From IMG/VR virus record IMGVR_UViG_3300009506_000651, positions 1 to 23,591 of that record: DNA of 23,591 nucleotides, one strand, 5' to 3'. Both the position numbers and the translations under genes were made by a program. The notes beneath the pieces were generated by a model. It ran no database searches, was not told the DNA's origin, and saw only the letters and a program-made list of their open reading frames with translations. Below, one piece after another: positions 9,833-23,138 of the stretch (position 1 is its first letter; every line of letters begins with the position of its first letter). The DNA comes from a virus.

Positions 9833-10753
9833 ATGCCGTTCGGAAGCTTCGGGGCGAGCATGCCTCTTGAGCGACTCAAGCCCTGGTATCCCGGACAGCT
9901 CGGGATACCAGGCTCGGACAATCCGCTGGGCATCCGCATGGAGCCGCAGGGCCTCGTCTACTACGTGGATGGATCCTCTGCGGTCGCGAACGACAGCAAT
10001 GACGGGACCGATCCCGACGAACCGTTCGAGACCATCCAGGCGGCTATCACGGCCAGCAACGCGACGATCGACTGGGCAGAGACTCCTCCCTACTATGGGA
10101 TGAACACGATCATCGTTGCGCCAGGCGTCTATGACGAGAACCTGACGCCAGCCTACTACTGCCGCATCATCGGGCTCGGGCTTGCGACAGGCGGAGACGT
10201 CTGCGTGAACGTGGAGCCGACCAGTGGCTCCTGCTTGGCCGGGACCGGTCTCGGCCTCCACCTGTTCAACATCCGGTTCACCTGCAACACGGCGCACCCG
10301 GTGATCGACTTCGGAGTGATGAACTCGACGATCATCGAGGCCTGCATGATTGTAGATGGGAACCCAGGGCTGGCCACCGTCGGGATCGATACGACGGGGG
10401 CGGGGGGCAGCCAGATCCTTGGTTGCAACATCACGAACACCAACAACCCGATCACGATCGGGATCCGTAGCACGGGCAACTTCTTCGACTGCCAGATCAT
10501 CGGCTGCAAGATCCACGCGGTAACCACGGGCATCGATCTGAGCGGCGCAGCGCTGGTGGGCAACACGCTCATCGCGCATAACTACATCGCCAAGCCCGTG
10601 ACCGGCATCAACGATGCTGTCGGGAATACGCTCGTGGTGGACAACTGGATCACAGCGACAGATGCGATCAGCCATGCGGACGCGACCATGGTGATCGCCA
10701 ACCATGTGCAGGATGCTGGAGTGGGCGCGGTCGAAGCAGCCGGCACCGACTAG
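9833..10753 (+). CDS. Parallel beta-helix (pectate-lyase-like) virion protein, copy 1
   Basis: 306 residues. Residues 1-40 form an N-terminal module with PLERL, a Pro-Gly-Gln-x-Gly-Ile-x-Gly motif and GIRMEPQGLVYYVD. From about residue 44 a DUF1565/pectate-lyase-like right-handed beta-helix follows: NDGTDPDEPFETIQAAI is the usual cap sequence, then a ladder of short strands with Asn/Asp/Gly turns and several inward Cys, about 20-25 residues per rung. Such proteins act as tailspikes or other receptor-binding or polysaccharide-degrading fibres, but no catalytic residues can be assigned by eye. The gene is paralogous to the next one, with the same N-terminal module, so both probably attach to the same virion site. 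Its location within the head module hints at head fibres. Confidence 0.78.
   Translation: MPFGSFGASMPLERLKPWYPGQLGIPGSDNPLGIRMEPQGLVYYVDGSSAVANDSNDGTDPDEPFETIQAAITASNATIDWAETPPYYGMNTIIVAPGVYDENLTPAYYCRIIGLGLATGGDVCVNVEPTSGSCLAGTGLGLHLFNIRFTCNTAHPVIDFGVMNSTIIEACMIVDGNPGLATVGIDTTGAGGSQILGCNITNTNNPITIGIRSTGNFFDCQIIGCKIHAVTTGIDLSGAALVGNTLIAHNYIAKPVTGINDAVGNTLVVDNWITATDAISHADATMVIANHVQDAGVGAVEAAGTD
9882..9912 (+). repeat. Perfect 12-bp inverted repeat in beta-helix gene 1
   Basis: CCTGGTATCCCG (9882-9893) and CGGGATACCAGG (9901-9912) are exact reverse complements around a 7-nt loop. The repeat overlaps the codons for the Pro-Gly-Gln-x-Gly-Ile motif, about 50 bases inside the gene. Confidence 0.75.
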
Positions 10754-10761
10754 GAGGGATC

Positions 10762-11751
10762 ATGCCGAGCACTGACGTACGGTTTCCCGGCGTCTTCCCT
10801 CTGACGCGGCTCAATACGCTGTTCCCAGGACAGTTCGGAATCCTGGGAACAGCCAACGAGACTGGCCTCCGGATGCACCCGACCGGGACGGTCTTCTACG
10901 TGGATCCGAACTACACGGGCGTCAGCGACAACCGTGATGGCACGGACCCGCTGGCGCCCTTGCAGAGCGTGGCCACTGCCCTGACCAAGTGCCAGGCCTA
11001 TCGAGGCGACGTCATCTATGTGATGGCGAACAACTCTTGGCAGTACGGCAACAGCGCGGATGGCTACACGACGGCCATCGTCGAAGAGGTCGAGATCACA
11101 GTCCCTGGCGTCTCCATCATCGGGGTCAGCCCGAGTGGGCAGGGCGTCTACTGGAACCCGACCCGAAACGGTGGGACCTGCATCACGGTGAGCGCTATCG
11201 ACTGCACGATCGAGGGCTTCTTCTTCACCGAGGGAGCATCAAGCGGCTGCGATGGCATCTATGCCGAATGGGACGGCACGACTTTGTTCGGCGAGAACCT
11301 GACGGTTCGGCACTGCACGTTCGACGACACGGTAGCGACGGCGATCCAGCTCGAGTATTCCTGGAACTGCGAGATCGCTTACAACCTGTTCAAGGAATGC
11401 TCAGTCGCCGGGTTCTATCTCGACCCAGCAGGATCGTCAGCGGCCTACATCAGCCTGCACGACAACGCCTTCCAGAACTGCGCCGTCGCCATGGCCTGTC
11501 AGGGCCTCGAGGACAGCCAGATCTGGGGCAACCTGATCTACAACGGGAACGCCCAAGGCGCGGGAGTGGCTACAGACGAGGGTCTGGACACGACCGGAGG
11601 CAACTCCAATATCGTGGCTGGGAACTGGTTCAGCTGCTTGCTCCCTGTGCCGGCCAATGGGGACTGGGACGATCTCAACACTGCCAACGCATCCGATGCC
11701 TGGATTGGCAATGGGTGCCTCAACGGTCCTAACACGACCAACCCGACGTGA
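10762..11751 (+). CDS. Parallel beta-helix (pectate-lyase-like) virion protein, copy 2
   Basis: 329 residues, upstream TAGGAGG at 10751-10757 fusing stop and ribosome site. Its N terminus repeats that of copy 1: PLTRL, PGQFGI, a Gly-Leu-Arg-Met-His-Pro segment, then FYVDPNYTG and DNRDGTDPLAPLQS as helix cap. The remainder is a strand ladder with Cys, Asn and Gly turns (for example CEIAYNLFKECSVAGFYLD) as in pectate-lyase-fold proteins. Divergence from copy 1 is high beyond the N terminus, as in duplicated receptor-binding proteins under selection. The stop TGA at 11749-11751 is in frame with the next start, so read-through would fuse it to the following protein. Catalysis is not assignable; a receptor-binding or depolymerase role is inferred. 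Confidence 0.78.
   Translation: MPSTDVRFPGVFPLTRLNTLFPGQFGILGTANETGLRMHPTGTVFYVDPNYTGVSDNRDGTDPLAPLQSVATALTKCQAYRGDVIYVMANNSWQYGNSADGYTTAIVEEVEITVPGVSIIGVSPSGQGVYWNPTRNGGTCITVSAIDCTIEGFFFTEGASSGCDGIYAEWDGTTLFGENLTVRHCTFDDTVATAIQLEYSWNCEIAYNLFKECSVAGFYLDPAGSSAAYISLHDNAFQNCAVAMACQGLEDSQIWGNLIYNGNAQGAGVATDEGLDTTGGNSNIVAGNWFSCLLPVPANGDWDDLNTANASDAWIGNGCLNGPNTTNPT
10818..10853 (+). repeat. Perfect 13-bp inverted repeat in beta-helix gene 2
   Basis: GCTGTTCCCAGGA (10818-10830) and TCCTGGGAACAGC (10841-10853) are exact reverse complements with a 10-nt loop, over the same Pro-Gly-Gln motif as in copy 1. The arm sequence differs from copy 1, yet the pairing is kept. Confidence 0.75.
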
Positions 11752-13292: not shown

Positions 13293-13475
13293 GTGACCTA
13301 CGGCGAGGAGGGCCTCGTGAGCGTGTCCTGCTCAGAGGATGGCTACCTGGTCGGGCAGTGCACGCAGCGGGCGTATTCCTTTATCCCAGGCGAGGTTCGG
13401 TTCGTGGACAAACGAGACTGGGAGTCGACCTTCAGCAAGATGCACACGTTCCAGCTCGCGCCGGAGCCCGTCTGA
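13293..13475 (+). CDS. Small conserved-looking head-tail junction protein
   Basis: 60 residues from GTG 13293; the frame is open back to the TGA at 13236, so an upstream non-ATG start is possible. The sequence is a run of short strands (GLVSVSCSED, RAYSFIPGEVRFVDK) and an aromatic-rich end (STFSKMHTFQLAPEPV), a pattern seen in tiny neck-region proteins that start TYGEE-like and end before a gp10-like gene. The TGA stop overlaps the next ATG (TGATG at 13473-13477), so the two are translationally coupled. Frame choice is supported by that coupling and by its protein-like composition. No function assigned. Confidence 0.6.
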   Translation: MTYGEEGLVSVSCSEDGYLVGQCTQRAYSFIPGEVRFVDKRDWESTFSKMHTFQLAPEPV

Positions 13476-13984
13476 TGCCGAAGAACAAGATCACGCCGAT
13501 CATCCCTCCTCCGTTCAACGACAGGGCAGCACAACGGGCCTTCGAGCAACAGATGAAGGTGATCGCCAAGGAATGGGAGAAGGAACTCGGCAAGACGACA
13601 GCCACCTGGGAGGACAAGCCGACGTTCAAGGTTCGGCTAGAGCGCAGGGCCAAGCTCTACGCGGTGACTGCCGAGGTCTCGGACATGCGGTGGATCTGGA
13701 TTGACCAGGGCACCAAGCCGCGCGACATCGTCCCGAAACGGCCCAGTGGCGTGCTGGCCTTCCCCAGCATGTTCAGGCCGAAGACGCGCAAGGGCTACAT
13801 CGGGTCCAACCGAGGATACAGCGGTGGTGCCATGCGCTACGCAAAGAGGGTGAAGAAGCACCCAGGCATCGAAGCTCGCGAGTGGACGCCGATACTGTCT
13901 AGGCGCTTGACGCCCAAGTTCATGAAGACGGTACAGGACGCGTTCCGGGCGTATGCAAGCGCCTCGGGACACGGCCAGGAATAG
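13475..13984 (+). CDS. Tail completion / neck protein (HK97 gp10-like)
   Basis: 169 residues from ATG 13475, which is coupled to the upstream stop; a longer in-frame reading from 13235 would run through unrelated sequence. It resembles the HK97 gp10 family, which sits at the head-tail joint: an N-terminal helix with Trp-Glu-Lys-Glu, then VRLERRAKLYAVTAEVSD, the WIDQGTKPRDIVPKRP segment (Asp/Asn-x-Gly-Thr-Lys-Pro is characteristic), a LAFPSMFRPKTRKG loop and the typical KHPGIEAREW near the end, followed by a helical C terminus. The protein is strongly basic. The next gene follows with TAGGAGG at 13982. Confidence 0.78.
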   Translation: MPKNKITPIIPPPFNDRAAQRAFEQQMKVIAKEWEKELGKTTATWEDKPTFKVRLERRAKLYAVTAEVSDMRWIWIDQGTKPRDIVPKRPSGVLAFPSMFRPKTRKGYIGSNRGYSGGAMRYAKRVKKHPGIEAREWTPILSRRLTPKFMKTVQDAFRAYASASGHGQE

Positions 13985-13993
13985 GAGGCTCAT

Positions 13994-14422
13994 ATGCCAG
14001 AGGACGAGGTCCAGGCTACGGAGCAGAACGAGCAGCCCAGGGAGCCAGAGGAGACCGAGGCGGAGCCCAAAGCCAAGTCGCCGCGCAGCGCCACGATCGC
14101 TGTCGCAGTGGTCAAGGCCGTCGGCAAGGCCGCGATCGTCCAATGGCAGGGAGGTGACGAAGAGCAACACAGGAGCACGGTACCAGCCGAGAGCATCGAC
14201 GAGGGCAAGGTCAAGGAGTCGGTCCTGAAGGCGGGCGAACCGAACTTCCGCTGGGAGGACGAAGGCTTTGACCAGATATGGGCGAGGGCTCTGCGGCGTG
14301 CTGGACTGTTCACGATCGAGGACTATCTCGCGAACTCCATGGACGGGCTGAATGCCCTTCGCGGAGCAGCGAACTTGATCATGCGAGAGATCATCCAGCG
14401 ACGCAGGTCGCAGAGGAGCTAG
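13994..14422 (+). CDS. Charged hypothetical protein between completion and tube genes
   Basis: 142 residues. Residues 1-35 are a Glu/Pro/Gln-rich, unstructured acidic arm; residues 36-90 look like a small beta-rich domain with hydrophobic strand VAVVKAVGKAAIVQW; residues 90-142 are helical and end very basic (RRRSQRS). Position just before the tail tube matches the place of tail-terminator or tube-associated proteins, but no diagnostic motif is visible, so no name is given. Ribosome site GGAGG at 13984-13988. Confidence 0.6.
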   Translation: MPEDEVQATEQNEQPREPEETEAEPKAKSPRSATIAVAVVKAVGKAAIVQWQGGDEEQHRSTVPAESIDEGKVKESVLKAGEPNFRWEDEGFDQIWARALRRAGLFTIEDYLANSMDGLNALRGAANLIMREIIQRRRSQRS

Positions 14423-14425
14423 AAC

Positions 14426-15928
14426 GTGGCTGAATATACAACCTCGGAGATGGCTGTCTTGTGGGTGGCCGAAGGGCCTAACAGGGCTCCGAATGCGATC
14501 CCATGCGCCATCCTGGAAAGCATCTCGATCCCGCGAGGCGGTCTCGAGTCCACCTACTGCTGGAATGCCCAGACGGGCAAGTACGAGCGGGTGAGCAAGA
14601 GGCGGGGCACGCCAGACGAGATCACGTTCGACATCGAGGAACTGGAGGGACTGACCGCCTCCGACATCGAGACCTACATCCGCAAGGACTGCCCGCTGGC
14701 CTTCTACGTGGGCGTCTACGAGTGCACCCCTCGCCTCGTTTTCAGTGGTGCGGACCGAATGAAAGTGATCGAGAACGCGCTATTGGAGACCGAGGCCGAG
14801 AGCGGCATGATGGGCAGGGATGCCGGCGTCGACACGATGTTGACGACCTCTTGGAATGCCGACGCGGTGGAGAAGGCCTTCGCGCTCGAGGAGTATGCTA
14901 AGAGCACGACTGAGACGGAGACCATCCGAGACATCGCGATCTGTGGGGTGGACGCCTGCCATGGCGTTTGCGGGCCCATCGCTGGCATGTGCGACACGCT
15001 AGTTGCGGTATGCGAGAGTGACGGCGTGGGGCCAGCCGACGTGTTGGCATCCACCAACTCTGGGGCGACCTGGGCCGTGACGGCAGCCGATCCGTTCCTC
15101 GTCTCAGAGGATATCAGCTCGGTGGTCTGCTTCCAGATGAGCCAGACCGTCACACGGTGGCTGGTCGCGAGAGGCACCACGGACGCGGGCAACCCGGCAG
15201 AGGTCTCATACTCAGATAACAGTGGGGCCACCTGGACGCCGGTCAACGTTGGAGCGACGAACGGCGAATTCGCTCCGCATAGCGGAAGCCTCTTCGCCCT
15301 GGATCGCTATCACATCTGGTGTGGGCTCGACAGTGGTGATATGTGGTTCTCGGCTGATGCCGGTGCGACCTGGACCGAGCAGGGCTCGGCCAATGCCGGG
15401 GTTGATCCGATCAACTACATCTACTTCATGAATGAGCGCGAAGGGGTGGCGGTCGGCGGAGCCGGGGCCACAAACTTCCTCATGAGCACCCGCAACGGTG
15501 GGGTCGACTGGGCCGTGACGACCACGATCGGCGGCGCTGGCACGGACATCCCTTGGTGCGTGACGATGCACGACCGTAACCGGTTCTTCATCGGCGATGA
15601 CCAGGGCGAGCTCTGGTTCACCGAAGACGCGGGCACGACCTGGACGAGGCGCCTGCCTGACCAGGGCCTGCCTGCCACCGCAACGTCGATCGATGAGATC
15701 TACGACATCACGCGCATCTCGGGTGAGTGCACGATCGGCGGCAACCCGTACGGGTTTATGGGCTGGACTGCCAACGGCGGCTACGACTGGGAGTTCAGAA
15801 CCACTGTACAGGCCAACGCTGCAGGCGATGGGATGTATGCCATCGTCGCGTGCAACTGGAACCTGGCGTATAGCGTGGGCGGGCCAGATACGGGCCCCTT
15901 GGGCCTGATCTACTCTCTGGCCGACTAG
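14426..15928 (+). CDS. Tail tube protein fused to a C-terminal six-Asp-box beta-propeller (BNR/sialidase-like)
   Basis: 500 residues, GTG start after AGAGGAG (14412-14418). Residues 1-160 fit a tail tube protein: beta-rich, with ITFDIEELEGLTASDIETYI and LAFYVGVYE, a typical size and the correct place right before the chaperones. A Cys-rich linker (about 173-197) leads to six Asp-box motifs of form S/T-x-[D/N]-x-G-x-x-W at about residues 209, 263, 309, 355, 399 and 448, spaced 44-54 residues. That is the periodicity of a sialidase/BNR or sortilin-like beta-propeller, here six blades. The fusion would array propellers along the tail. Catalytic residues of true sialidases (an Arg triad and a Tyr/Glu pair) cannot be confirmed by eye, so a binding role is as likely. 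Confidence 0.72.
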   Translation: MAEYTTSEMAVLWVAEGPNRAPNAIPCAILESISIPRGGLESTYCWNAQTGKYERVSKRRGTPDEITFDIEELEGLTASDIETYIRKDCPLAFYVGVYECTPRLVFSGADRMKVIENALLETEAESGMMGRDAGVDTMLTTSWNADAVEKAFALEEYAKSTTETETIRDIAICGVDACHGVCGPIAGMCDTLVAVCESDGVGPADVLASTNSGATWAVTAADPFLVSEDISSVVCFQMSQTVTRWLVARGTTDAGNPAEVSYSDNSGATWTPVNVGATNGEFAPHSGSLFALDRYHIWCGLDSGDMWFSADAGATWTEQGSANAGVDPINYIYFMNEREGVAVGGAGATNFLMSTRNGGVDWAVTTTIGGAGTDIPWCVTMHDRNRFFIGDDQGELWFTEDAGTTWTRRLPDQGLPATATSIDEIYDITRISGECTIGGNPYGFMGWTANGGYDWEFRTTVQANAAGDGMYAIVACNWNLAYSVGGPDTGPLGLIYSLAD

Positions 15929-16047: not shown

Positions 16048-16827
16048 ATGGCATCGACAACCGAAAAGTATACGACGGAAGACGGCGTTGAGCTCACGCT
16101 CAAGGCCGTGCGCCCTGTCCAGATCGAGATGGCCCAGGAGGCCATTCGGCAGGAGTGGCGCGAGACGGGCCGGATGGTGGACCCACCACAGTTCAAGGTC
16201 CAGTTCGAGCGCAGGATCGGCACGGCAGAGGTATGGGCCGACCACCGATATGACCCGGACAAGGGCATCGACACGCTAACGGTCCCGGACGACCCGCAGC
16301 AGACGGCGATCAACCACGCGATCTGGGGCCAGTACGAGAAGGACTCGGCCGAGCTCGAGCAGCATCTGACCGAGGTCCAGTTCCGGCTCTTCATCACCTA
16401 CGGCGTCGAGGCGGAGCTCCCTGATGACGACAAGTGGCTGCGACAGCTCCGGGCGATGGGGATCAAGGTCGGAGAGGACCCGGACGAGCAGCGGTTCTCC
16501 TACGTCTGGTTCTACCTTCTCAGCCCGAGCGACCAGGCAGAGGTGACGACCCACATCCAGTTCCTGAGCCTGGGTCGCCTCGCGACGGAGAACAAGGTGC
16601 AGTCCTTTCGTACGTCTATACGATCCAGCATGGCACGGGCCCTCGGGACGCAGGTTGACCGAATTATCGAAGGCTTTGAGGAGTATGCAGACCGGGGAAC
16701 AGGCGCCTTCGCCGAAGGCCTCCGTGGAGTCGGAGGAGAGCAGCAGGGGCTGGTTGGTGAGCCAGAGGCACCACGAGATGAGGGTGGCCAAGTGGGCGGG
16801 GCTCCTGCCTCCAGGGAGGTGGGATAG
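16048..16827 (+). CDS. Tail assembly chaperone, first frame (gpG-like)
   Basis: 259 residues starting at ATG 16048 (GAGAGG at 16036-16041); an in-frame TTG at 16003 is rejected. The protein is helical and acidic (WADHRYDPDKG, then AELEQHLTEVQFRLFITYG), as for chaperones that guide tube subunits onto the tape measure. Reading continues as plausible sequence to about GFEEYADRG (residue 217), after which it becomes Gly/Glu-rich and featureless. In the +1 frame from about 16697 the sequence is instead protein-like. That is the lambda G/G-T arrangement, where a small part of ribosomes shift frame to make the longer chaperone. Its position between tube and tape measure genes is diagnostic. Confidence 0.78.
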   Translation: MASTTEKYTTEDGVELTLKAVRPVQIEMAQEAIRQEWRETGRMVDPPQFKVQFERRIGTAEVWADHRYDPDKGIDTLTVPDDPQQTAINHAIWGQYEKDSAELEQHLTEVQFRLFITYGVEAELPDDDKWLRQLRAMGIKVGEDPDEQRFSYVWFYLLSPSDQAEVTTHIQFLSLGRLATENKVQSFRTSIRSSMARALGTQVDRIIEGFEEYADRGTGAFAEGLRGVGGEQQGLVGEPEAPRDEGGQVGGAPASREVG

Positions 16828-16933
16828 CCTCTCGGGCGACGAGAAGGCTGAGCTGATCGTGTTTCACGCGGCTGAGATGGAGATGGAGCGCTACGAGGCC
16901 GACCATCCGCCGAAGCCGAAGAAGGAGCGCTAG
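16655..16933 (+). CDS. Tail assembly chaperone second frame (gpT-like), probably made by frameshift
   Basis: A 92-residue frame open from 16568 to 16933, overlapping the first chaperone frame by more than 170 bases. The only early start codons are TTG 16655 and ATG 16685, neither with a good ribosome site, which supports expression as a G-T fusion. The C-terminal part has SSRGWLVSQRHHEMRV, WDSLSGDEKAEL and a Glu-rich helix with an ending of Pro/Lys (PPKPKKER), similar in style to tail chaperone T domains that bind the tape measure. The gene stops 3 bases before the tape measure ATG. Moving from the first frame requires +1 or -2. Confidence 0.65.
   Translation: MTELSKALRSMQTGEQAPSPKASVESEESSRGWLVSQRHHEMRVAKWAGLLPPGRWDSLSGDEKAELIVFHAAEMEMERYEADHPPKPKKER
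16693..16699 (+). promoter_or_regulatory. Candidate -2 frameshift site (CGG GGA A) in the chaperone overlap
   Basis: In the first frame the codons are CGG GGA ACA. A Gly tRNA reading GGA at 16696 can slip back two bases onto GGG at 16694 and resume at GAA 16697 in the second frame. No classic X-XXY-YYZ heptamer for a -1 shift is seen, and -1 would lead to the wrong frame. A -2 shift is known for the Mu tail chaperones. Confidence 0.4.
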
Positions 16934-16935
16934 GC

Positions 16936-19900
16936 ATGGCGTTCGCTCCGATAGGGTTGAAGGCAGTCCTCGACATGGAGTCCTTCAACAAGAGCCAAAA
17001 GGAATACGAGAAGGACCTGAAGAGCCTCGACCAGCAGACCCAGAAGACCGGGTCGAAGTTGGGCGGGGCTCTTCGTGGTATCGCCTCGGTCGCTGGCGGG
17101 ATGCTGGCCTACCAGGGCATCAAGACGCTGGTCGTCGGCATCAAGGACATGGCCCTGGCTGCCCAGGAGCTTCCGGGCGTAGCTGCGGCCTTTGACGGCA
17201 TCGGCGGGTCGCTGGAGCGGATGCGCGAGGGCTCGCTAGGCATGGTGGCTGACGTTGACCTGATGAAGAGCTACAACTCGGCCGCTCAGCTGGTCAGCAA
17301 AGACTTCGCCGATCAGCTCCCGGATGCCATGCAGTATCTCGCCAAGGTCTCAGCTGCCACTGGCACGACCATGGACTACATGATCGATTCGATGGTCAAG
17401 GGCGTCGGTCGCCTGAGCCCAATGATCCTGGACAACCTCGGCATCCAGGTCAACCTCACGGAAGCAAACGAGGCCTACGCCAAGCAACTTGGCAAGAGCG
17501 CCAGCGAGCTGACCAAGTCTGAACAGCAGACAGCGGTCATGAACCTGACCATGCAGAAGCTTGCGCAGAACACCAAAGACATGCCGCCCGTCCTTGGGAC
17601 GGCGGCCCAGAGCCTTGGCGTTCTCAAGGCCCAGACTCAGAATGTCAAGCTGGCTTTCGGGGCGGCGGCCCTGTCCGTGGGCAATCTCTTCCTCGCGCCT
17701 CTGGCCCGCCTTGCCACCAAGATCGGGCCAAAGGTCGTAGACATGCTCAACTCCTTCTCGAAGCGGGTCGGGCAGTTCCAGGGCATGACAGCTAAGGCAG
17801 GGAGCGTACTGAAGGCCGTTGGCAAGGTAGTCGCCTCGGTCGCCGATAGGATATGGAGCTGGGTAGACTCCATCATCGGGCTTAGCGACAGGGTCGGACA
17901 GGTGCTGGACCCTATCAGGGAGAAGCTGGCTCCGATCGGTAACGCTCTCAAGTTCGTGCGCGACAACTGGGACGATCTCAGCGACGTAGTGGAGAACTTC
18001 CTGACCTACGTCGGAACGGCAACTGACGTCTTCACGCCACTGAAAGACACTCTCGAGGGCATTGGTCTGAGCTCCGGGGCCGCCAACCAGATTGCTATGA
18101 TCGGAGACGCGGTCCAGCAGTTCATACGTACGCTCGAGGACGGCCAGGGCATCGTGGCCGCATTCCAGACGGGCCTATTCGCTACGGGCCTAGTCGACGA
18201 GAGCGTGGTCGTGGCCATTGGCGACATAGCCACGAAAGTTCAGGATGCCTTCTCTAATCTGTCCTCGACCTTTCAGGCTGGCGGGCTCTCTGGGATCGCG
18301 GGCCAACTCTTCGCTCCACTGGGCCTGGAGCTGCCGACCGCTTGGCAGTCGATCCTCGACGAGGCGCTGCCCTTCCTGGCGGATACGTTCATGGGCCTGC
18401 CTCAGCGTCTGGTCGAGGCTTTCCAGACCGGCGGAGTCGGCGGCGTTTTCAGCGAGGCATTCGCAGCAGCCTTCGACGTGGTCGGAACGATTGGCGCCAT
18501 CCGCATCGGGATCGTAGACGGGCTCCTCCAGCTCGGGCAGGATGTGCTCACTACGCTGGGAACGGCATTCCCTGGCATCCAGCCAATCATAGAGGACGTG
18601 TTCCGCCCGTTGCTGGACATAGTGACGACGCTCTGGAACACGTTCAACGAGGCCAAGGCAACCATCGTCTCCGCGATCATGGAGATGTTCTCGAACCCGC
18701 AGGAGACGGTCGGGAGCTTCAAGGACATCCTGGCACAGGTCGTGCCGGTGGTACAGTCGGTGATTCTGACCCTGACCGAGGTCGCCGCAAATGTGATCCC
18801 TGTCTTCATGGAGGTAGTCGCGGCGATCGTGCCCATCGTCAGTACTGCTATCGAGATCATCTCGCAGATCGCCGCGGATGTGCTTCCAGTCCTTGGGGAG
18901 GCATTCGTCGCTGTGTCGGCAGTCGTAGCCGAGGTGATGCCGGACATCCTCGCGATCGTCTCCGATGTTCTCGATGTGATCCAGCTCGCCTGGACAGCCA
19001 TCTGGCCAGTGCTTCAGACGGCCCTTGAAGGATTCCTGAACGTGGCACTCCCACTCTTCCAGGGACTGGTGGATGTGATCGCCGGGGTCGTCTCCACCAT
19101 CAAGAGCCTCCTCGAGGGCGACCTAGTTGGAGCCTGGAACAGCCTGAAGGATACGATCGTCACGATCGGCGCCACGCTCATTACGGCGGTCACGAACCTG
19201 TTCCAGGGCATCATCGACGTGATCAAGTCGATCTTCGGCATCGGCTCTCCGTCGACCGTGATGGTGGACATCGCCACGGACTTCCTGAACGGCTTCGTGG
19301 GCGGGATCCTAGGCATGACCGAGGCGGTCTTCCAGTCGATCACGGACCTGTTAGTCGGCATGAGTGATCTCTTCCTGGAGTACATCCCAGAGTGGACCCA
19401 GATAGGCGTCGACTTGATCAACGGGCTCCTGGGCGGGCTGCTCTCAAAAGTCCAGGAGGTTAAGGACGCGGCGGTCGGCGTCGTGAGCGACGCGGTCGGA
19501 GCAGTGAAGAATTTTCTCGGGATTGGGTCTCCTTCCAAGCTCTTCTGGGCCGTGTCTGAGGACATCGTGGCCGGCATCGCGGGCCCGCTCGAGCAGGGCG
19601 CTCCCACGGTCGACAACGCGCTCGCTCCGATCATGAACACGTTCGACGCCATGGTCAACTGGCTCAAGGACTTCGGGACAAGCCTCCGCGGAGCGAACCT
19701 CCAGGACCAAGCAGAGATATTCGAGGACATGGGCGACGGATTCGACTCGCTGACCAAGGCGATGAAGAACTTCATCATCGTAGGCCGGGAGCTGGCCGTA
19801 GGCGACATCACCGACACGGCGCTCATGCAGTGGCTAGAGACCTGGAAGCACTTCGTGGTCGTCATGGCTGACATGGCCACCGGCCTCGAGGCCGAGCTCG

Positions 19901-22900
19901 GGTACAACCGGATCAAGGAAGCCAGGCATACGATCAAGCGGATGAGCGACATCATCCAGTCGATGATGATCGACCTCAACTTCGTGAAGAAGCAGCCGAT
20001 CGTGGACATCCAGGCCTACGTGGCCCAGATCGGTGAGCTAGGGCGGGGCTTCTACTGGATGCTCTATCGGATGAGGAAGGACTTCGGTGAAGATGCTCTG
20101 GCCTACGCCAACTCGGTGGCCCAGAGCGTGGGTGGCATCCTCTCCATCGTCAAGGGCGCGCTGGACGCACTCAACGCCCTGGCTGAGTGGACGCCCGTCC
20201 AGGACCTGACCGAGAAGGCGACGGCCATGGCTGAAAGGATCGGCCAGTTCGTCACGGCGATGGCCGACATGGCCGGGAGCCTTGGATTCGGCGTGGCTGC
20301 TGCAGTGCAAGTCCTCACTAACGCGAAGACCATCCTCGAGTTTGGATCGGCCGGGATTGACGTCTTGAAGGCTCTGGTCGAGTACAAGGAAGGCGAAGGG
20401 CTGCCGGAGAAGATCGCCCGCGTCCGGGCCGACCTCCAGATCGTGATCACTGAGCTCCAGACGATCGCCAGCGGGCTTGAGCAGGAGGCGGTGGAGGCCG
20501 CAGCCGACATCCTGAAGAGCGCCCAGGCGATGCTCGGGTTCGTCGAGCCTGGCATCGATGCCCTGAAGGCTCTAGCCGAATATGAGACGGCAGAAGACCT
20601 CCTCGAGAGGATCGGCAACTTCAGTCTGGACATGTACGATCTGATCGATGAGCTGATCTTCCTCGCGGGCCGCTTCGAGGCCGAGGCCGTGAAAGCCGCT
20701 GTCGAATTCGCAGAGGCAGCAGCTAAGGTCGTCGGGTTCGTCCGTCCCGGCGTAGATGCCCTGACGGCTCTGGCAGACTACAAAAGCGCCAATCTGTTGC
20801 TTGATCGGATCGGATCGTTCTCCCTGGACATGTTCGACCTCATTGACGAGCTCGTATTCCTAGCCGGACGGTTCGAGGCTGAAGGCGTGAAAGCTGCGGG
20901 AGAGCTATTCTCTTCAGTCTCCAGCATGGTGGGATTCATCCAGCCCGCCCTCGAGGCCCTGAAGGCGCTTGGCGACTATAAGACGGCAAAGCTCCTGCTA
21001 GACCGGATCGGGTCGTTCTCCTTGGACATGTTTGACCTCATTGATGAGCTCGTGTTCCTGGCCGGACGGTTCGAATTGGAGGGTGTACAGGCGGCCGCGG
21101 CCTTTGGTGAAGCAGTAACGCGGCTGGTCGGGTTCGTCCGCCCAGCGGTGGACGCCCTCGCGGCAATTGCCGACTATGCTCCGCTGCAGGGCCTGCGCGC
21201 TCGCATGCAGACGTTCGCAGGCCAGCTTGCCGTAGTCGTGAACCAGATTCGGCTTCTGGCGTCCTACTACAAGGGCGCTGGGCTCGGATGGGCGGTGGAA
21301 TGGGCCGGCTACGTGAGCAGCATGGTCGGCGTCATCAAGCCAGCCATCGACGCGATCGCCGCCCTGGTAGAGTACAAGCCAGCCTCTGGCCTGCTTGCTC
21401 AGATGCAGGTCCTCATGGGCAACTTGGCGCCGATCGTGAACCAGATTCGTTTGCTGGCCGCCTACTACAAGGATGCTGGCCTTGGCGCGGCTGCAGAGTG
21501 GGCGAGCAATGTCTCCTCAATGGTCGGCGTGATCAAGCCAGGCATTGACGCCATCGCGGCGCTGAAGGACTTCGTCCCGCAGGCGGGACTTGGGCCGATC
21601 ATGGTTAGGTTCCGAGAGCAGCTTGCGATCGTGGTCGAGCAGATCCGCCTGATGGCCGAGGACTTCAAGGAGACCGGCGTCACCTGGGCCGCCACGTTCG
21701 CGACGCACGCCCAGGCGATGATCGGCCTCATCCAGCCTGGCATCGAGGCGATCAACTCGATCGTCAAGTATGCGCCAGCCGGGACGCTACCGGCCAAGGT
21801 GCATTCTCTCAGGCTGGACCTGAACACCGTCCTCGAGGAGGTCGTGGACCTTGCCAAGGAGTGGCACAGCAAGGGGCTGAAGGCCGCAGACAAGTTCGCA
21901 GACACGGCGCTCAAGCTGGTGGGCCTGGTCCAGCCATCGATCGATGCCTTGGTGGAGATCGTCGACTACAAGAGCGTCGCTAAACTGCCCAGGGCCGTGA
22001 GAGGCTGGCGCGACGACATGGAGAGCTTCCTCGATGCGATGGTCTACCTGGCCAGGGCCTTCGCGAGCGAGATGAGCACCATCCTCGAGTTCTTCCGCAA
22101 CGTGGACACGCTGCACCAGGCTTTCGTCTCCATCGATGCCTGGTTAGTCAACCTGACCGAGATGATGATCAGCTGGGAGCAGCCAATGTCCCAGGCAGCG
22201 GCCGCCATGCGTCAGATCGAGGACTATGCGCAGACCATGTTCCAGAGCGCCCGAAGCATGTACAACTGGCTGGCCGGGATATACACCGGAGGGCTCGAGG
22301 GGCTGCCCGATGGCGTCTCCGGCTGGGCCGATGCCTTTTCGCAGGCGATCCTCGCCATGTGGAACTGGTACCAGAACGAAGGTAAGGCAAAGTGGGACGC
22401 GATGCTGACGGAGATGGCCGTCAAGACCGTCTGGGTGATCTCTGGTAGGGCCTCCAGTGGGGCGCCTGGCATCGTCGGTATCAGAACTGCCTTTGAAGAC
22501 ATGCTCAAGGATATCGACAGCTTCATCGTAGGGCCGGGCACTGGGGGCGGGCTCTACTGGAACAAGCTCATGTCAGCGATGGCAGAGGCCATTGGCCCCG
22601 TGAGAGATGCCGCTGCCACTATCGCATCCTCGATCAACGAGACTGGCACGAGCGTGGTCGATCTCCAGGGGCTATGGTCCTCGGCCTTCTGGAACATGTA
22701 TAACGACATCACAACCATCGTCCCTGGAGTGGGGGAGAGTCCAGAGTCCAAGCCGCTGCCTCGCGTGCTGTCCTATCTGAACTCGATCATTGCCACTCTG
22801 GGCGAGCTGGCCACCGCTGGTCCTCGGCCATTCGATCTCATCAAGCTGTCCGTCGATGCGCTGAACCTCTCGCTCGACTCTCTTAGACAACGGTTCTGGC

Positions 22901-23010
22901 CCAGCTCGTGGCGGCTAGGAATGCAAACCTTCTCAGTGCTCCGGCGGCGGCCGGACCTGCGGCTCCTGCAGCATCTTGGGTCCCAGCCTATGGCGCTCCG
23001 TCTCCCTTAG
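16936..23010 (+). CDS. Tail tape measure protein (C terminus frameshifted)
   Basis: 2,024 residues, AAGGAG at 16922-16927. The protein sets tail length and is extruded into the host. Residues 1-230 are a TP901-like N-terminal core (helical; contains DYMIDSMVKGVGRLSPMIL). Residues about 597-870 hold hydrophobic helices and two GIGSPS motifs (near 768 and 862), usual in tape measures. Residues about 1060-1700 consist of ten repeats of about 66 residues. At about 1.5 angstrom per residue the length implies a tail of roughly 300 nm. The last ~30 residues after LDSLRQRF look like out-of-frame sequence, whereas the -1 frame encodes a typical tape measure end (see 22908-23138), so the real product is probably longer. 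No peptidase motif was recognised. Confidence 0.85.
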   Translation: MAFAPIGLKAVLDMESFNKSQKEYEKDLKSLDQQTQKTGSKLGGALRGIASVAGGMLAYQGIKTLVVGIKDMALAAQELPGVAAAFDGIGGSLERMREGSLGMVADVDLMKSYNSAAQLVSKDFADQLPDAMQYLAKVSAATGTTMDYMIDSMVKGVGRLSPMILDNLGIQVNLTEANEAYAKQLGKSASELTKSEQQTAVMNLTMQKLAQNTKDMPPVLGTAAQSLGVLKAQTQNVKLAFGAAALSVGNLFLAPLARLATKIGPKVVDMLNSFSKRVGQFQGMTAKAGSVLKAVGKVVASVADRIWSWVDSIIGLSDRVGQVLDPIREKLAPIGNALKFVRDNWDDLSDVVENFLTYVGTATDVFTPLKDTLEGIGLSSGAANQIAMIGDAVQQFIRTLEDGQGIVAAFQTGLFATGLVDESVVVAIGDIATKVQDAFSNLSSTFQAGGLSGIAGQLFAPLGLELPTAWQSILDEALPFLADTFMGLPQRLVEAFQTGGVGGVFSEAFAAAFDVVGTIGAIRIGIVDGLLQLGQDVLTTLGTAFPGIQPIIEDVFRPLLDIVTTLWNTFNEAKATIVSAIMEMFSNPQETVGSFKDILAQVVPVVQSVILTLTEVAANVIPVFMEVVAAIVPIVSTAIEIISQIAADVLPVLGEAFVAVSAVVAEVMPDILAIVSDVLDVIQLAWTAIWPVLQTALEGFLNVALPLFQGLVDVIAGVVSTIKSLLEGDLVGAWNSLKDTIVTIGATLITAVTNLFQGIIDVIKSIFGIGSPSTVMVDIATDFLNGFVGGILGMTEAVFQSITDLLVGMSDLFLEYIPEWTQIGVDLINGLLGGLLSKVQEVKDAAVGVVSDAVGAVKNFLGIGSPSKLFWAVSEDIVAGIAGPLEQGAPTVDNALAPIMNTFDAMVNWLKDFGTSLRGANLQDQAEIFEDMGDGFDSLTKAMKNFIIVGRELAVGDITDTALMQWLETWKHFVVVMADMATGLEAELGYNRIKEARHTIKRMSDIIQSMMIDLNFVKKQPIVDIQAYVAQIGELGRGFYWMLYRMRKDFGEDALAYANSVAQSVGGILSIVKGALDALNALAEWTPVQDLTEKATAMAERIGQFVTAMADMAGSLGFGVAAAVQVLTNAKTILEFGSAGIDVLKALVEYKEGEGLPEKIARVRADLQIVITELQTIASGLEQEAVEAAADILKSAQAMLGFVEPGIDALKALAEYETAEDLLERIGNFSLDMYDLIDELIFLAGRFEAEAVKAAVEFAEAAAKVVGFVRPGVDALTALADYKSANLLLDRIGSFSLDMFDLIDELVFLAGRFEAEGVKAAGELFSSVSSMVGFIQPALEALKALGDYKTAKLLLDRIGSFSLDMFDLIDELVFLAGRFELEGVQAAAAFGEAVTRLVGFVRPAVDALAAIADYAPLQGLRARMQTFAGQLAVVVNQIRLLASYYKGAGLGWAVEWAGYVSSMVGVIKPAIDAIAALVEYKPASGLLAQMQVLMGNLAPIVNQIRLLAAYYKDAGLGAAAEWASNVSSMVGVIKPGIDAIAALKDFVPQAGLGPIMVRFREQLAIVVEQIRLMAEDFKETGVTWAATFATHAQAMIGLIQPGIEAINSIVKYAPAGTLPAKVHSLRLDLNTVLEEVVDLAKEWHSKGLKAADKFADTALKLVGLVQPSIDALVEIVDYKSVAKLPRAVRGWRDDMESFLDAMVYLARAFASEMSTILEFFRNVDTLHQAFVSIDAWLVNLTEMMISWEQPMSQAAAAMRQIEDYAQTMFQSARSMYNWLAGIYTGGLEGLPDGVSGWADAFSQAILAMWNWYQNEGKAKWDAMLTEMAVKTVWVISGRASSGAPGIVGIRTAFEDMLKDIDSFIVGPGTGGGLYWNKLMSAMAEAIGPVRDAAATIASSINETGTSVVDLQGLWSSAFWNMYNDITTIVPGVGESPESKPLPRVLSYLNSIIATLGELATAGPRPFDLIKLSVDALNLSLDSLRQRFWPSSWRLGMQTFSVLRRRPDLRLLQHLGSQPMALRLP
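20130..22040 (+). repeat. Ten degenerate tandem repeats of about 198 bp in the tape measure
   Basis: Each unit ends in a motif such as VGFVRPGVDALTALADYKSA, and variants of it occur ten times, near 20200, 20390, 20590, 20788, 20985, 21183, 21380, 21575, 21780 and 21975. The average period is about 197 bases (66 residues). The third and fourth complete units are nearly identical around DRIGSFSLDMFDLIDELVFL, showing recent duplication. Confidence 0.8.
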
Positions 23011-23138
23011 CGGCCTCGGCGGCTAGCTCGACGAGCATCAGTCTCAACTTCAATGGCACGACCATCAGCAACGGAATGGACCTGGCTACCTTTGGCGCCT
23101 TCGTCCAGCAGCAGATACGCGACGAGATTCGGAGGTAG
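22908..23138 (+). CDS. Tape measure C-terminal segment in the -1 frame
   Basis: 76 residues from GTG 22908; the frame is open from 22887. It has no ribosome site of its own and begins inside the tape measure gene. The sequence is Ala/Pro/Ser-rich, then SISLNFNGTTISNGMDLATFGAFVQQQIRDEI, which is the normal ending of tape measure proteins of this group. Joining LDSLRQ to LAQLVAARN in this frame restores a continuous protein of about 2,066 residues. The stop lies 3 bases before the next ATG with GGAGG inside its last codons. So this is a fragment separated by a 1-base loss in the phage or in the assembly, or by a programmed -1 shift. Confidence 0.7.
   Translation: MAARNANLLSAPAAAGPAAPAASWVPAYGAPSPLAASAASSTSISLNFNGTTISNGMDLATFGAFVQQQIRDEIRR

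Follow-up and report, generated by a model that had tools for sequence, protein, structure and literature searches.

We propose that the product of the gene at positions 14426-15928 of the viral DNA analysed here is the major tail (tube) protein in a siphophage with hosts of the Anaerolineae type, and that each subunit carries an outward-facing beta-propeller of the Ycf48 type that would make weak, multivalent contact with the host. We consider this reading likely. The DNA, which we call the window, comes from IMG/VR as a viral record 23,591 bases long with 63% G+C, and it forms a single collinear structural module on the plus strand. Genes for the portal, the protease, decoration proteins and the major capsid protein, an HNH gene and genes for two beta-helix proteins lead to the neck genes, and these are followed by ORF 14426-15928, the chaperones and then the tape measure. 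The genes on either side of the ORF are as follows.

13370..13984, plus strand: neck or tail-completion protein (gp10-like), the upstream anchor of the tube slot, with homologues in five relatives
13994..14422, plus strand: small acidic protein between the neck and tube genes; its G005 homologue is also upstream of the tube gene
16048..16827 (ORF from 16003/16048), plus strand: tail assembly chaperone, first part; its homologues in G001-G005 adjoin the 3' side of the tube-propeller gene
16655..16933, plus strand: second part of the tail assembly chaperone, shifted to the +1 (= -2) frame from that of the first part
16936..23138, plus strand: tape measure protein of >2,000 aa, with PHROG tape measure matches and a reading frame that is broken near 22,900

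These anchors can be recognized by several features. The G001 homologue of the neck protein matches the PHROG tail completion/Neck1 family (E 4e-4). The window, G001, G002, G003 and G005 all have the second part of the chaperone in the +1 (= -2) frame, which supports a programmed frameshift and thereby the identity of the chaperone pair. In the chaperone overlap, where the frame is +1/-2 and not -1, there is no classical XXXYYYZ slippery site that fits the frames. The conserved segment of the window tape measure is 74% identical to that of locus L029. The tape-measure ORF stops at 23010 after an alien-looking tail, and a typical C-terminus runs on in another frame to 23138; the break near 22,900 is either an assembly error or real. 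The small acidic protein of G005 has a homologue in the equivalent position in G761. The product of 13994-14422 was also considered as the tube and was rejected on reading of its sequence, which has an acidic, Pro/Glu-rich start and a helix-rich look. Between the capsid and neck genes lie the two beta-helix-type proteins (9833-10753 and 10762-11751), arranged in tandem and alike in their N-termini. The second of them matches Pfam Beta_helix, homologues of the pair are present in G001, G002, G005 and G008, and they are possibly a further decoration of the virion.

The gene of interest is one uninterrupted frame of 500 codons that starts with GTG at 14426. Its parts are listed here.

14414..14418, plus strand: Shine-Dalgarno sequence AGGAG, 7 nt 5' of the GTG start, read from the sequence
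14426..15928, plus strand: putative tail-tube protein with a C-terminal Asp-box beta-propeller, 500 aa (ORF, Shine-Dalgarno sequence, slot, and 12 homologous loci of the same architecture)
14426..14905, plus strand: N-terminal domain of ~160 residues, putatively the ring-forming tail-tube domain, assigned from its slot only (AF2 model of low confidence)
14924..15925, plus strand: predicted Ycf48-type beta-propeller, residues ~167-500 (AF2, Foldseek, PDB profile search)
14942..14992, plus strand: Cys-rich junction with C173, C178, C182 and C189 (alignment)
15050..15073, plus strand: Asp box 1, STNSGATW
15212..15235, plus strand: Asp box 2, SDNSGATW
15350..15373, plus strand: Asp box 3, SADAGATW
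15488..15511, plus strand: Asp box 4, TRNGGVDW
15620..15643, plus strand: Asp box 5, TEDAGTTW
15767..15790, plus strand: Asp box 6, TANGGYDW

The preliminary description of this DNA had reported a single-frame ORF directly before the tail chaperones, with six Asp-box motifs at a spacing of 44-54 residues that would form a propeller. The position is as described (the chaperone ORF 16003/16048-16827 and an overlapping ORF to 16933 follow), and the six boxes are confirmed. When scored as [STA]x[DN]xGxxW, they fall at residues 209, 263, 309, 355, 399 and 448, with spacings of 54, 46, 46, 44 and 49. Composition-preserving shuffles (20,000) gave a mean of 0.05 boxes and a maximum of 2, and the remaining frames of the window contain none. 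The propeller fold is likewise recovered by prediction. AlphaFold, with nine family members as input, builds residues ~165-500 of the full protein as a propeller with pLDDT mostly 60-90, and a Foldseek search of the PDB ranks Ycf48 first for it (E 1e-11, TM 0.74 by target length). The number of boxes is six as described, but the predicted propeller appears to have seven blades when strands A-D around the boxes are counted, the last blade having no Asp box.

A profile search of PDB sequences again has Ycf48 first (E 9e-16), and sialidases, GH74 enzymes and sortilin score more weakly. Against Pfam, the window protein gives weak matches that are under the cut-offs (sortilin/Vps10 with E 2e-6 and PSII_BNR with E 2e-5), including 24.4 bits for the Ycf48 family PF14870, whose gathering cut-off is 27. 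Nine of nine family members match PF14870 at E<=0.01, with a best E of 1e-10. As judged from the model, the assignment of residues ~165-500 to an Asp-box propeller of the Ycf48 type is well supported. Binding of glycan by this propeller is possible. At the junction that precedes it, C178 is invariant in the nine aligned members. Cysteines C27, C45, C89 and C100 of the N-terminal domain are also conserved. The conserved cysteines of the domain and the junction could possibly form disulfides or a metal site.

The case for a tube comes from gene order. In the window and in every relative with known flanks, the gene occupies the slot between the neck/tail-completion genes and the chaperones with the tape measure. 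Where there is enough sequence, the relatives run from the neck gene(s), mostly by way of a single small gene, to the tube-propeller gene, the chaperone ORF(s) and the tape measure. Phages that have a related tape measure and no propeller fill this slot with a plain tube of ~135 aa, with tandem tubes or with a longer tube, and no plain tube was seen in loci where the tube-propeller matched. Both kinds of gene can be duplicated in tandem in this slot. Plain tubes are duplicated in tandem in L003, and L073 has two tandem tube-propeller genes at 1-1083 and 1079-2611 (G004 46456-49066), the upstream copy being cut by the contig end. In the slot of another phage with a related tape measure (L115 4054-7061) there are three related tandem ORFs of 501, 336 and 158 aa.

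The N-terminal part had been described as tube-like. Its gene is indeed in the tube slot, but the sequence and structure tools gave no confirmation of the fold. The region has pLDDT ~35-45 in the full-length AF2 model, and a separate AF2 run on the domain reached pLDDT 43, with Foldseek matches that are meaningless. The order of elements in these low-confidence models (strands, one helix, strands) resembles that of a tube domain, which is a beta-sandwich with one flanking helix and a long beta2-beta3 loop, but this proves nothing at that confidence. Searches of Pfam, PHROG and PDB sequences with the N-terminal domain gave no match, and hhalign of its profile against plain-tube profiles and against 606 clusters of proteins from related loci returned family members only. 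This lack of tube homology is weak counter-evidence, because HHpred likewise fails to link the tube core of 936 phages, of ~165 residues, to any known tube (PMC6669499). We infer the tube fold of residues 1-160 from the position in the slot.

Direct searches with the protein alone found no relatives among viral contigs and INPHARED phages, nor did a first scan of genome contigs. The relatives were reached solely through the conserved tape-measure segment, followed by screening of those loci. The same two-part protein is present in eight other viral contig groups (L029/L049/L050, L032, L055, L060, L073, L078, L112 and L123), with L112 and L123 being almost the same. When whole genomes were searched with the N-terminal profile, it identified three of 396 genomes in the class of an Anaerolineaceae MAG, and one further genome from the order of two of those three also has a match. 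All four genome ORFs bear the propeller. In total, 12 further loci (eight viral, four in Anaerolineae genomes) have the same architecture. In one of the Anaerolineae genomes, the gene is part of a 101.6-kb contig on which neck, chaperone, tape-measure and distal tail genes are lined up in order. A phylum-wide search of 400 genomes found none and is uninformative in that it had no positive control. Tape-measure matches in named MAGs fall in Anaerolineae or Chloroflexi (three), in one with a Chromatiales label and in one from Thermoprotei. Since phage contigs can be mis-binned, these records point to, and do not fix, hosts of the Anaerolineae (Chloroflexota) type. A 1368-aa protein with four Asp boxes, encoded 3' of the tape measure in L159 (7019-11122; G333 contig C221), resembles that of G004 37183-39390 and is possibly a propeller-bearing tail fibre.

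The two domains have diverged together. Their identities correlate with r 0.75 over 66 pairs, and the trees of both domains group L032 with L112/L123, apart from the rest. The propeller is more conserved than the tube domain in 54 of the 66 pairs. The gene has no internal stops in the eight viral records, and that of G001 is split by the record ends. This joint divergence, together with the better conserved propeller, suggests from sequence comparison one old fusion that was inherited as a unit, and not a host-range module that is frequently swapped. We think it rather probable that a tube lineage of Anaerolineae phages has an obligate, vertically inherited Ycf48-type propeller, present in several hundred copies per tail as a multivalent binding surface or a structural sleeve.

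Other readings of the gene have to be weighed. The product could be a separate tail decoration or a neck-proximal protein that sits in the slot, with the true tube encoded by an unrecognized gene elsewhere. Such a protein would account for an N-terminus that has neither tube homology nor a confident tube fold. It would also fit with the N-terminal domain never being found without the propeller in anything searched (viral loci, Anaerolineae genomes), when one might expect to meet an ordinary tube domain on its own. We nevertheless judge this unlikely, since the tube of the relatives occupies exactly the same slot, and in G003 no gene other than the tube-propeller gene is called from the gp10-like gene to the chaperone, where a 350-base gap could hide a short gene. 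The two ends of G001 (55.7 kb) are identical over 123 bases and those of G002 (67.4 kb) over 127 bases; from these terminal repeats, both are apparently complete genomes. Plain-tube profiles match nothing elsewhere in these two or in the other propeller phages, a result to be read with the provisos that highly diverged tubes could be missed and that the window is a fragment. The preliminary description had named three outcomes that would count against its own reading (no propeller, no tube fold, another tube gene); none of them was seen, and in particular a second plain tube was not matched in the relatives. The preliminary description had further offered a glycan-cleaving fold, and a propeller acting along the tail as an enzyme of the sialidase or xyloglucanase type, with surface polysaccharide as its substrate, would be in line with the GH33 and GH74 enzymes that are found among Asp-box propellers and among the weaker structural and profile matches here. 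This reading is very improbable. The nearest structures, by sequence profile and by fold, are the non-enzymatic propellers of Ycf48, the sialidase F/YRIP motif is present in 0 of 13 members, and the Pfam matches at E<=0.01 are generic BNR repeats with no sialidase or GH74 catalytic family among them.

The protein could also be a tube protein whose propellers serve the architecture of the tail, through ring-to-ring or neighbour contacts, stiffness or protection, and not host binding. Host-range modules do not usually show the greater conservation that the propeller has over the tube domain, and this pattern, together with co-inheritance and the lack of any module swapping seen, speaks for a structural part. 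The nearest fold, Ycf48, is an assembly factor, and the extra domain2 of YSD1 is structural (PMC8718954). On the other hand, the D-A loops, which are the ligand face by the general propeller convention that we used in place of coordinates to assign loops to faces, show the lowest conservation of all elements, as expected for a variable binding face; the Asp boxes show the highest. Moreover, the TpeX tube decorations of 936 phages bind host cells (PMC6669499). An architectural role is a possibility that we hold to be somewhat doubtful, and we prefer a tube protein whose propellers contact the host.

Tube proteins form stacks of hexameric rings that enclose the tape measure. In lambda, each tape-measure residue corresponds to ~0.15 nm of tail length. 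In the mechanism that we propose, the N-terminal ~160 residues would form such stacked hexameric rings, and the C-terminal ~335 residues would form an Asp-box propeller, apparently seven-bladed, that projects outside the tube. The fusion is in frame and does not depend on a programmed frameshift; therefore, every subunit would carry the propeller. Each ring would then display six propellers, as the preliminary description had pictured, provided that the N-terminal part has the tube fold. For a tape measure of ~2,000 residues and a ring repeat of 4.3 nm, as in YSD1 (PMC8718954), the tail would be ~300 nm long, with ~70 rings and ~430 subunits and propellers per virion. The propellers would most likely touch glycan or peptide on the host surface, weakly and with high multivalency, and in this way help adsorption. 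They would perhaps add stiffness to the tail and are probably not enzymes.

Known tube decorations are mostly small Ig-like domains, the purpose of which is unclear. A tube domain followed by a C-terminal decoration, as we infer here, is also the arrangement of lambda gpV, T5 pb6 and YSD1 (PMC8718954). In lambda gpV the decoration is an Ig-like domain of ~90 residues (PMC8718954), whereas here it would be a propeller of ~335 residues. The MTP-TpeX protein of lactococcal 936 phages is similar in having a tube core with no HHpred link and then a large outward domain, with a total of 470-530 residues for TpeX (PMC6669499). TpeX differs in that an Ig-like domain and a BppA-type CBM are added by programmed frameshift to a fraction of the subunits, estimated at <= ~180 modules per virion, and isolated TpeX binds the host (PMC6669499). 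Ycf48/HCF136 (PF14870; PDB 2xbg, 5ojr), the best match by fold and profile, is seven-bladed with Asp boxes; it is a stand-alone cellular assembly factor of photosystem II, whereas here the propeller is fused to a phage domain. The top viral fold match is the 'outer capsid protein' of Vibrio phage VP2 (Q6RCF0), a propeller of similar size. We rejected it as a precedent, because its gene comes after a tail fibre gene and not in the tube slot. The annotated genes of VP2 resemble epsilon15. The VP2 protein is L152 20439-21821, and its annotation may be wrong, as the gene follows a tail fibre gene. The architecture had been thought to be without parallel in well-studied phages. This holds for the type and size of the domain and does not hold for decorated tubes as such, which are known in lambda, T5, YSD1 and 936 (PMC8718954, PMC6669499). 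No propeller-decorated tail tube was found, by title or abstract, in the open-access papers searched. The principle of tube decoration is already known, and what would set this protein apart from the 936 case is the type of domain, its size and the in-frame fusion that would put it on each subunit.

If the proposal is correct, this family, whose lineage has an identifiable host class, would allow the purpose of tube decorations to be tested clearly, with adsorption, stiffness and protection as the candidates. The tail would also be a natural scaffold on which hundreds of propellers are regularly arrayed. In addition, the gene would serve as a recognizable tail gene for uncultivated phages of the Anaerolineae, a major but poorly sampled group of hosts.
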